From Natronosalvus vescus (GTDB lineage Archaea > Halobacteriota > Halobacteria > Halobacteriales > Natrialbaceae), in the NCBI RefSeq assembly GCF_023973145.1, contig NZ_CP099546.1, forward strand, positions 2,790,001 through 2,854,000: DNA of 64,000 nucleotides. The letters run 5' to 3'. Shown here piece by piece: positions 17,441-20,557 of the stretch (positions within the stretch are counted from its first letter, which is position 1; each line of letters opens with the position of its first letter). A program made the translations under genes and the position numbers. Under the pieces are notes generated by a model that was not told the DNA's origin, did no database searches, and worked only from the letters and a program-made list of their open reading frames with translations.

Positions 17441-17535
17441 ACGTGGGGATACTCAGGGGGGCCACAAAGTCCCATCGACGGGTGCTGTCACCGATGCGAG
17501 GGAGCACCCACCCACATCGAAGCGAGGTATCGTCC

Positions 17536-17613
17536 CAACTGAACCGATTCAGACGCCGATCGCAGACTCGTCTTGCGATCTGGTGTACATTGACTTTTGG
17601 AGGCTACTATAGC
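17536..17613 (+). repeat. 78-bp hairpin-bearing element, copy 1
   Basis: This intergenic segment, read on the plus strand, matches 20432-20509 read on the minus strand at 61 of 78 positions without a gap (hand count). It contains a 7-bp stem, GATCGCA / TGCGATC (17558-17564 and 17574-17580), with a 9-base loop. A conserved ACATTGACT block follows, and the element ends in GGCTACTATAGC. The flanks are not related, so the edges are sharp. It ends about 63 bp before the ATG of the gene at 17677, upstream of that gene's own TATA-like box. Confidence 0.75.
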
Positions 17614-17646
17614 AAACAAACACATTGTGTTGCATTCGAGGCGACG

Positions 17647-17653
17647 TTTATTA
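17647..17653 (+). promoter_or_regulatory. TATA-like box of the MBL-like gene
   Basis: TTTATTA centred 27 bp before the ATG at 17677. It supports a leaderless transcript and that start codon. Confidence 0.55.
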
Positions 17654-17676
17654 GCGTGGCGCTCTAACCATCGCCT

Positions 17677-18360
17677 ATGAGCTTTCGTGTCGACGGACGA
17701 GCGACTGACCTACAGGAAATCGACCGGTTCGACGGCGGTGTCGGCTGGATCGCTCACCCCGAAGAAACGATGCAGCGGGCCAGTCACGCCCTCGAGTTCG
17801 ACGGCAAGGTCTGGGTGTTCGACCCCGTGGACGCCGACGGTCTCGACGAGTTGCTCAGCTCCCTCGGCGAGGTCGCTGGCGTTGTCGTCACGGTGGATCG
17901 TCACAAACGCGATGCGGGAGCAATCGCCAAACGCCACGAGGTTCCGGTCTACCTACCGACCTGGTTCGACGGCGTAAGCGAAACGCTCGGCGCGCCCGTA
18001 ACCCGTTACGAGGACGAACTCGCCGACACCGGCCTCGAGGCAATCGTCCTCAAGGACAGTCGAACCTGGCAGGAAGTCGGCTTCTACGATCCCATCCGTG
18101 GGACGTTGCTCGTCCACGAATCGCTCGGGACGGCCCCGTACTTCCGCGCCGGGGACGAACCCCTCGGCGTCCATCCGATGCGCCGACTGACGCCACCCAG
18201 GGCGACCCTGAGTGGCTATCACCCCGAACGGATTCTCGTCGGCCACGGCGAGGGAATCATGACGGACGCCTCACGCGTGCTGAACGAGACCCTCGACGAA
18301 TCGCGAAAGCGGACGCCGCGCGCCTATGCGGGGGCGGTTCGCCAGTTCTTGCCGTTCTGA
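17677..18360 (+). CDS. Degenerate MBL-fold-like protein, function unknown
   Basis: 227 residues. The layout resembles a metallo-beta-lactamase-fold protein: a hydrophobic strand KVWVFDPVDADGLDELL, a following VVVTVDRHKRDAGAIAKRH where the HxHxDH motif is expected, and a late RILVGHGEGI strand with His-Gly. The classical metal motif is reduced to D-R-H-K-R-D-A, so metal binding is doubtful. Acidic, soluble, with no signal peptide. It sits between the first 78-bp element and phoU, in the same direction as the next two genes. Confidence 0.65.
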   Translation: MSFRVDGRATDLQEIDRFDGGVGWIAHPEETMQRASHALEFDGKVWVFDPVDADGLDELLSSLGEVAGVVVTVDRHKRDAGAIAKRHEVPVYLPTWFDGVSETLGAPVTRYEDELADTGLEAIVLKDSRTWQEVGFYDPIRGTLLVHESLGTAPYFRAGDEPLGVHPMRRLTPPRATLSGYHPERILVGHGEGIMTDASRVLNETLDESRKRTPRAYAGAVRQFLPF

Positions 18361-18468
18361 GATCGCCAGTTTTTCACTCCCGTCCCTGTTTCCACTCCGC
18401 TACATCGAGGGTGGAACCCAACCCATGCCGGGAACAAGTCTTTGTACACGACTCGAGAAGTATCACCC

Positions 18469-18894
18469 GTGGTTTACATCACCCGTGGGCTGGTCGAGGT
18501 ATTGCTCGAACTCGCAGCCGACGCCGACCCAGGTCACGTGACGACTGGCCTCTCAGTGACACAGGCGTCGGCACTCGAGGGAGCTGCGGCCGATGCGCTC
18601 GACCCGGAGACACCGGTGTTCACGGACTTTTTTCTGCCCGACCCGGGTAATTCGGTCAACGCGGTGTTCGGCGTGACGCTCTCGACACCGGCGACGGAAA
18701 CCCAGGGGCGGTTCGTCTCCCACCCCGTAGAGGAACTCGCCGTCACCCGGAAGGACGACCTCGCCCAGGTGATCTTCGTGGCGGTGCCGCCGTGGGACAA
18801 GAGCGAGACGGCCTTCGGTGCGTTCGACCGCTCGGGGGATCGCCTCCCACTCGAGATCCTGGATGCCGAGCCGCCGGTGGATCACCTCGAGTAG
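18469..18894 (+). CDS. Conserved hypothetical protein
   Basis: 141 residues if read from the GTG at 18469 (VVYITRGLVEVLLELA). A TTG 27 bp upstream gives a less convincing N-terminus. It has no cysteines or transmembrane segments. Conserved-looking pieces are TDFFLPDPGNSVNAVFGV, GRFVSHP and VIFVAVPPWD. Proteins with this outline occur in haloarchaea, but I cannot name the family. It lies in line with the MBL-like gene and phoU, and the gap to phoU contains phoU's own TATA box. Confidence 0.65.
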   Translation: MVYITRGLVEVLLELAADADPGHVTTGLSVTQASALEGAAADALDPETPVFTDFFLPDPGNSVNAVFGVTLSTPATETQGRFVSHPVEELAVTRKDDLAQVIFVAVPPWDKSETAFGAFDRSGDRLPLEILDAEPPVDHLE

Positions 18895-18948
18895 CCGTCT
18901 GGGTGTGCATTCCGTTTCCTGAATCGATCGATGCTAACGTACGTAAGG

Positions 18949-18953
18949 TATAT
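18949..18953 (+). promoter_or_regulatory. TATA box of phoU
   Basis: A TATAT core 28 bp before the ATG at 18979 (context GGTATATCAC). It selects this ATG over the in-frame one at 18931. Confidence 0.6.
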
Positions 18954-18978
18954 CACTGCCGCCCGGAGTGGCTTGATT

Positions 18979-19650
18979 ATGGCCAGAACCTCCTATCAGG
19001 AACAGCTCCGGGAGCTTCGTTCGGAGATCTGTTACATGGGCGAGGTCGTGATGGAACGACTTCGGATGGGGCTCGACGCCCTCGAGCAAAAGGACGAAGC
19101 GCTCGCCAACGACGTGATCACTGGCGATAGCGAGGTCAACCGCATGTACCTCGACCTCGAGCAACAGTGTATCAACCTTCTTGCACTCCAGCAACCCGTC
19201 GCCAGCGACCTGCGATTTATCGCCTCCTCGTTCAAGATCATCACCGACCTCGAGCGCATCGGCGACCTCGCGGTCAATCTTGGGGAGTACACGATCGACG
19301 CCGAACGCGACCTGTTTCCGGACGTCGACGTACAGGCGATGGGAGAACTCACCCTCGAGATGGTTGACGATGCGATGCAGGCCTACGACGGGGAGGATAC
19401 CGACGCCTGTCACGAACTTGCCTCCCGGGACGACGACCTCGATCACTTTGCCGAACGAGCGAGCGAAATCGTCGTCAGGGATCTGATCGAGCGCGAACTC
19501 GACGCTCCAGACGAAGTCGAGTACCTCTTACAGGACGTCTCCCGGCTCTTGTTGACGATCCGTGACCTCGAGCGCGTCGGCGATCACGCCGTCAACATCG
19601 CCGCACGGACGCTGTACATGGTCGAAAACGACGACGAACTCATTTACTAA
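18979..19650 (+). CDS. phoU: PhoU-family phosphate signalling protein
   Basis: 223 residues, two PhoU three-helix bundles. The first holds MARTSYQEQLRELRSE, with QQPVASDLRFIAS and ITDLERIGDLAVNLGE. The second repeats the signature as TIRDLERVGDHAVNIAARTLY. The E(R)xGDxAVN repeats bind metal clusters in the family. PhoU links phosphate transport (Pst) to phosphate-dependent signalling. No pst genes are near, so this may be one of the several stand-alone PhoU paralogues of haloarchaea. Its stop overlaps the stop of the convergent DUF7344 gene by 4 bp. Confidence 0.92.
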   Translation: MARTSYQEQLRELRSEICYMGEVVMERLRMGLDALEQKDEALANDVITGDSEVNRMYLDLEQQCINLLALQQPVASDLRFIASSFKIITDLERIGDLAVNLGEYTIDAERDLFPDVDVQAMGELTLEMVDDAMQAYDGEDTDACHELASRDDDLDHFAERASEIVVRDLIERELDAPDEVEYLLQDVSRLLLTIRDLERVGDHAVNIAARTLYMVENDDELIY

Positions 19651-20288
19651 TCGTCCCCACGACGCCCTCGGCTGGGTACGAACGATTGCCACTCGGGCCA
19701 CGTGGGTCGACGCTCGCCATCGAGCACCGACTCGGCAAGCACGTGGAAACTCGTCACCAGCACCAGAAGGACGACGATCAGCCCGGAGAGGACGGTTGGA
19801 GTAATCCGAAGTAGGCCCACAGTCGACAGTGAAACCAGGATCGTACTGATGCCGGTCACCAGTACGTACAGTCGCCACCACTCTCGATCCGGCTCCTCGG
19901 ATAGCGGCTCGAGGTACTCGACGAACTCCTCGATCCGTTCGGTCGGTTCGACGGTTCCCCGGTCTTTGTCGTAGCGAACGATACGATACTCGTCAAGTTT
20001 CGGGAGGTGGGTCTGATACAGCGAGATGTACACCCGTTGGCGCTGAGACGAGTTGAGTTGTTCAGGCGTCGTCTCGTGCTCACGTGCGGCGACCCAGTCG
20101 GTGAGATCACGAATATCGACGGCGCCACCTGACTGGTGGAGATAGCGGAGTACGTCACGGCGGCGACTCGTCTGAAGGACGTGAAACCGGTCATCCGGTG
20201 TGAGTGCTGGCTGACTACTCGATTCGCCATCCGTGTGCACTGCCCCGGTACCCAACTGCCGTGAGGTTACACCCGAGTTGGGGCCCAT
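19647..20288 (-). CDS. DUF7344-type winged-helix membrane protein
   Basis: 213 residues. The N-terminal part (about residues 28-120) is a winged-helix domain: RFHVLQTSRRRDVLRYLHQSGG, DLTDWVAAREH, VYISLYQTHLPKLDEYRIVRYD, then TVEPTERI. This is the arrangement of the haloarchaeal DUF7344 regulators. Two closely spaced transmembrane helices follow (about residues 140-185), putting the DNA-binding-like domain at the membrane. The function is probably transcriptional control, but ligand and targets are unknown. A TTTATAT box lies about 30 bp before the ATG at 20288. The second 78-bp element lies 140-220 bp upstream in the same orientation as this gene. Confidence 0.8.
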   Translation of the reverse strand: MGPNSGVTSRQLGTGAVHTDGESSSQPALTPDDRFHVLQTSRRRDVLRYLHQSGGAVDIRDLTDWVAAREHETTPEQLNSSQRQRVYISLYQTHLPKLDEYRIVRYDKDRGTVEPTERIEEFVEYLEPLSEEPDREWWRLYVLVTGISTILVSLSTVGLLRITPTVLSGLIVVLLVLVTSFHVLAESVLDGERRPTWPEWQSFVPSRGRRGDD

Positions 20289-20431
20289 ATGTGTGTCGCT
20301 GACAAGTCACGTATTCCATATAAATCCATACTATCGCACAGCGAGGGTAATCTGCACGTGAATCGTCTCAAAAGTGAAATCATCGGTTCCACGCGCGTCA
20401 ACTCACAAGCCTACGACTGAAACCGTGAGGA

Positions 20432-20509
20432 GCTATAGTAGCCACTGCAAGTCAATGTCCACCTGATCGCCAGACGTATCGGCGATCAGTGTGTAATTCG
20501 TTGCAGTTG
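20432..20509 (-). repeat. 78-bp hairpin-bearing element, copy 2
   Basis: The minus-strand counterpart of 17536-17613 (61 of 78 identical, ungapped). Its stem is longer: 9 perfect base pairs, CTGATCGCC / GGCGATCAG (20463-20471 with 20481-20489), with a 9-base loop. The innermost pair is C-G where copy 1 has A-T, a compensatory change. The element lies between the divergent DUF7344 and MBL-fold genes. Confidence 0.75.
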
Positions 20510-20557
20510 TCACTATCACTCCAAATCCTTTTCATCGATCCGGGTTCATCCCTGAGT

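Follow-up and report, generated by a model that had tools for sequence, protein, structure and literature searches.

RUP and Correia/NEMIS elements are bacterial MITEs of the IS630/Tc1-mariner type: short, non-coding, hairpin-forming intergenic sequences present in many copies, which carry terminal inverted repeats flanked by a TA duplication, and whose ends in the case of Correia start with TATAG. DDE transposition of the IS630/Tc1-mariner kind duplicates a TA, a preference for CTAG has been reported for IS630, and TA-duplicating relatives of IS5 exist. In Haloquadratum walsbyi, the small mobile repeats SMR-A and SMR-B measure about 80-110 bp, have inverted terminal repeats and reach up to dozens of copies; they have no known parent transposon and are reported to make no target duplication, and SMR-A is reported to target PATE and IS605 palindromes (PMC3119063). 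Finally, GTAG-tagged REPs are palindromic, intergenic repeats of 20-40 bp that are moved by RAYTs (PMC3733652).

Here, we describe a pair of elements in a 64,000-nucleotide stretch of the Natronosalvus vescus genome (NZ_CP099546.1, positions 2,790,001 to 2,854,000; referred to below as the window), which very probably belong to a family of MITEs, non-autonomous DNA transposons present in many copies, that a TA-targeting transposase mobilises in trans. The initial annotation had correctly placed two copies that match across a 78-bp block (78% identity, well beyond chance). Alignment of many copies defined the unit as an 80-bp core, TAGTARCcAsTG...CAsTGGCTACTA, with a TA on each side, of which the 78-bp block is the larger part. 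The edges are as sharp as had been claimed, as judged from the many aligned copies, but they coincide with the core boundaries in Table 1: the left edge had been misplaced at CAACTG, when the family in fact starts some 8-10 bp further to the left, with the right end in inverted form, so that the left 10 bp mirroring GGCTACTATAGC had been overlooked. Since the left end, GCTATAGTAAcAACTG, is the inverted form of the right end, CAGTGGCTACTATAGC, in the aligned copies, the element is a single long imperfect palindrome, of 86 bp when its outermost C and G, which are only partly conserved, are included. The arms of this short, non-coding element constitute terminal inverted repeats that pair across 17+15 positions. 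The decayed TA of copy 2 reads TC on the + strand.

Table 1. Positions, within the window, of the two element copies and of the intergenic gaps that hold them.
Feature	Position	Strand	Parts	Basis
Copy 1	17528..17611	+	TA 17528-17529; 80-bp near-palindromic core 17530-17609; TA 17610-17611	alignment with other copies and exact indexing
Copy 2	20434..20517	-	TA 20434-20435; 80-bp core 20436-20515; decayed second TA 20516-20517	alignment with other copies
Divergent intergenic gap with copy 1	17441..17676
Divergent intergenic gap with copy 2	20289..20557

The family is widespread in haloarchaea. When copy 1 was used as a query, 20 places in its own genome were matched at E<1e-4; 43 matches were obtained with a consensus, for a total of about 43-46 copies. 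The search for further haloarchaeal copies that the initial annotation had proposed thus returned many of them, rather than a lone pair. Sister Natronosalvus species range from no copies (G003, G005) through one (G002) to more than 40, and the family is present in 67 of the 194 genomes sampled from the class, representing 23 of 65 genera, and in named Natrialbaceae genomes as well; plasmid copies were found in Natrinema, Haloarcula, Halomicrobium, Halostella and others. The phage records searched held no match to the element, and two matches to viral contigs, which have one sequence in common and lack the palindrome, were dismissed as chance. The end sequence of the element was not found in the literature searched, and a term search of a Natrialba magadii genome paper found neither MITEs nor intergenic repeats mentioned.

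The copies vary in several ways. Longer variants (L261:7402-7527, L276:4399-4524, L270:3619-3740, L034 and L133) retain both arms, with an additional hairpin of ~40 bp inserted in the apical loop, the inserts being of two unrelated kinds (CGCGGTTCTCGCTC... and GGCTCAGAACCGGTT...), while one copy has shrunk to about 28 bp (L463:1500-1530; TATAGTAGCCACTGAAACGGCTACTATC), the interior of the hairpin apparently having been deleted. In the sub-families represented by L319:4065-4150, L297:333-418 and L463:2300-2385, both ends are altered jointly (CTCTTG/CAAGAG, CGACTG/CAGTCG), as if they had co-evolved with different enzymes. Tandem or overlapping copies (L395:422-587, L003:1414-1575 and L458:1500-1665) have a terminal CTATAG or CTA in common; a simple insertion at a TA within an older end does not recreate the L395 junction exactly. 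Copies that are linked by just one N in draft assemblies (L291, L313, L272, L223, L231, L267 and L290) are probably assembly breaks at palindromes, not true tandems. At L387:502-587, a young copy lies just upstream of a transposase pseudogene that, from a reading of its translation, appears to be IS5-like, and this IS occurs without the element several times in relatives.

Comparisons between relatives reveal that the element is mobile and that the family has recently been active. Natrinema mahii contains seven identical copies with unrelated flanks. One N. mahii copy is absent from N. thermotolerans in a 20-kb stretch, where the flanking BLAST pieces overlap in the empty genome by exactly 2 bp (TA), and the filled and empty sequences at this site differ by the core plus the TA duplication. 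We also fused the two flanks of each of ten N. mahii copies around one TA and looked for the resulting empty sites in three relatives. The joined flanks of L391 aligned without a gap to an empty relative that has CA where TA is expected; those of L387, whose host site is a multi-copy IS, were gapless at the joint in several relatives, with the TA kept in one; and those of L392 retained CCCTA and G on the two sides of the joint, with 1-bp gaps elsewhere. At L385, a 13-base gap lies near the joint and the junction is not exact. Overall, these sites favour a unit made up of the 80-bp core and a duplicated TA. Two other comparisons, of the Natronosalvus genomes G001 and G004 and of Natrialba species, showed no junction because the intergenic regions have diverged too far. 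The reconstructed target is CTAG in 74 of 127 distinct copies (58%), as compared with 1.4% of background NTAN sites, and among the aligned ends target-site duplications of 3 bp or more were not above chance, the duplication being TA only. These many copies, with their sharp palindromic ends, TA target duplication and empty sites, vindicate the mobile, MITE-like repeat that the initial annotation had listed among its candidates.

The same junctions bear on two other kinds of mobile repeat. It is rather unlikely that the elements are small mobile repeats of the Haloquadratum type, with terminal repeats, unknown machinery and no target duplication: the size is similar and no parent transposon is recognisable, but a TA duplication is seen here whereas SMRs are described without one, and the copies examined are intergenic, while the insertions described for SMR-A are into PATE and IS605-type palindromes. 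A repeat of the REP/RAYT kind, which a Y1 transposase mobilises in the form of a single-stranded hairpin, would be in keeping with the GTAG near the foot of the element and with an imperfect hairpin that has a conserved internal loop. This explanation is disfavoured by the empty sites and is very improbable overall, as a TA target duplication with insertion at CTAG is unlike single-strand transposition, and many copies have GTAA in place of GTAG.

In the mechanism that we favour for the MITE family, a transposase supplied in trans would cut at the ends (TAGTARC...), with the arms of the 80-bp near-palindromic core serving as long terminal inverted repeats; the core would then insert at TA, by preference inside CTAG, duplicating the TA, and any effects on flanking genes would be incidental. 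Because the insertions combine a TA duplication with a CTAG preference, the enzyme is most likely a DDE transposase of the IS630/Tc1-mariner kind, a TA-duplicating IS5-type enzyme being less likely. An autonomous transposon with these ends was not found in the three genomes scanned (G001, G004 and N. mahii): in G001 and G004 no exact end was seen paired with another over a transposase-sized stretch, and in N. mahii the solitary ends examined (1-mismatch ends) belonged to short elements. Furthermore, no paired ends 300-4000 bp apart in the extracted loci were seen flanking a transposase, and among the terminal repeats listed for the IS630-like loci extracted, none matched. IS630-type transposases (PF13358, DDE_3) are absent from the element's own genome (G000) and from G006 and G007, all of which are copy-rich, and the copies in the N. 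vescus genome may therefore be fossils or have been moved by another enzyme.

At both sites in the window, three sister species lack the element. The site of copy 1 corresponds to 81-85 bp between conserved anchors in these species, free of the element, as against 199 bp here, and around copy 2 the distance between the anchors is reduced by about 93-97 bp in them and the palindrome is missing. The window copies were most likely inserted after the separation of these lineages, the alternative of a loss in each of the three being less simple. None of the 46 own-genome copies examined falls within a predicted gene. The 43 classifiable copies are divided between tandem genes (24), divergent gaps (13) and convergent gaps (6), classes that are approximate, since genes were predicted with a simple codon-usage script whose calls cover 61% of the window. 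Between same-strand gene pairs, 9 copies share the orientation of the genes and 15 oppose it, a roughly even split, and across own-genome copies and sister species neither position nor orientation is conserved beside orthologous genes. As the copies are intergenic and have no constant orientation, the pair does not form a unit and there is no support for a regulatory role; the two copies, which had been taken to bracket 2.8 kb, each lie in a divergent intergenic gap of their own. A regulatory site that binds a protein and flanks this phoU-containing block would accord with the placement of both window copies in divergent promoter gaps, upstream of the genes on either side, but we consider it extremely unlikely given that most classifiable copies lie between tandem genes and that relatives retain the genes without the elements. 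The regulatory element put forward in the initial annotation thus has no support, as there is no fixed gene neighbour and no constant orientation and both sites are empty in the sisters.

We also examined how the element folds. The 9-base apical loop described for each copy is confirmed, but the stem is not a local one, as the fold takes in the entire element and includes a 4+4-base internal loop and a one-base bulge. The RNA folding z-scores of the two window copies are -2.1 and -5.5, the fold being weaker in copy 1. In a covariation test on 63 diverse copies, with 500 shuffles and slid-partner controls, paired cells of the named structure amounted to 82.5%, as compared with 77.7% in the shuffles, and double-change cells to 108 versus 42, counts that are inflated by shared ancestry among the copies; none of the 500 shuffles reached 108, and the slid-partner controls fell far below the real structure. 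Double changes occurred at the ends (13-74, 16-71) as well as in the inner stem (31-55, 32-54, 38-48), while the 4+4 internal loop remained unpaired, with strong conservation on its 3' side (TGAC). Thus, a claim of covariation that had initially been based on one pair is borne out on 63 copies, inner stem included: the pairing is maintained, although this does not imply an RNA, since a transposon with inverted ends would also show it.

A small-RNA family or cis-regulatory RNA, in which the hairpin is transcribed and the fold is the function, would account for the pairs that covary along the full stem, inner stem included, for the conserved internal loop and for the folding z-scores. However, the pairing is explained at the DNA level by the inverted ends, orthologous sites in sister species lack the element, several species of the genus have one copy or none, and orientation to neighbouring genes is about even. 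Moreover, no Rfam covariance model gave a match overlapping copy 1 or copy 2, even with the E-value limit relaxed to 10. We therefore regard an RNA as highly unlikely, and the small-RNA candidate of the initial annotation, with no Rfam match, no fixed neighbour or orientation and empty sister sites, has no support. It is possible, if doubtful, that the hairpin itself is selected beyond its ends, with the enzyme or its transcript recognising a cruciform or hairpin with an unpaired internal loop. Homogenisation of the arms by copying would lose the internal loop, and its retention argues for such recognition; were this the case, the inner stem would be kept through compensatory change.

Taken together, these analyses turn an unexplained pair of hairpins into a defined mobile haloarchaeal repeat with exact ends, target and duplication, which offers a means of dating insertions, a guide in the hunt for the missing transposase, and a safeguard against annotating such hairpins as RNAs or regulatory sites. 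Like the REPs moved by RAYTs, the element is a palindromic intergenic repeat with GTAG near one foot, but its TA duplication points to a different chemistry from that of these 20-40 bp repeats. With SMR-A and SMR-B, compared here by their description and not by sequence, it shares its haloarchaeal hosts, size, prominent inverted ends, copy numbers of up to dozens and lack of a known parent transposon (its ends having been found on no transposon in the three genomes scanned), but differs in its TA duplication, as SMRs are reported to make none (PMC3119063). Although it differs from RUP and Correia/NEMIS in its sequence, its archaeal hosts, an inverted repeat that extends across nearly the entire element and the absence of any IS630 relative found with the same ends, the element has in common with them that it is short, non-coding and intergenic, has inverted ends and a TA duplication, forms a hairpin and is present in high copy.
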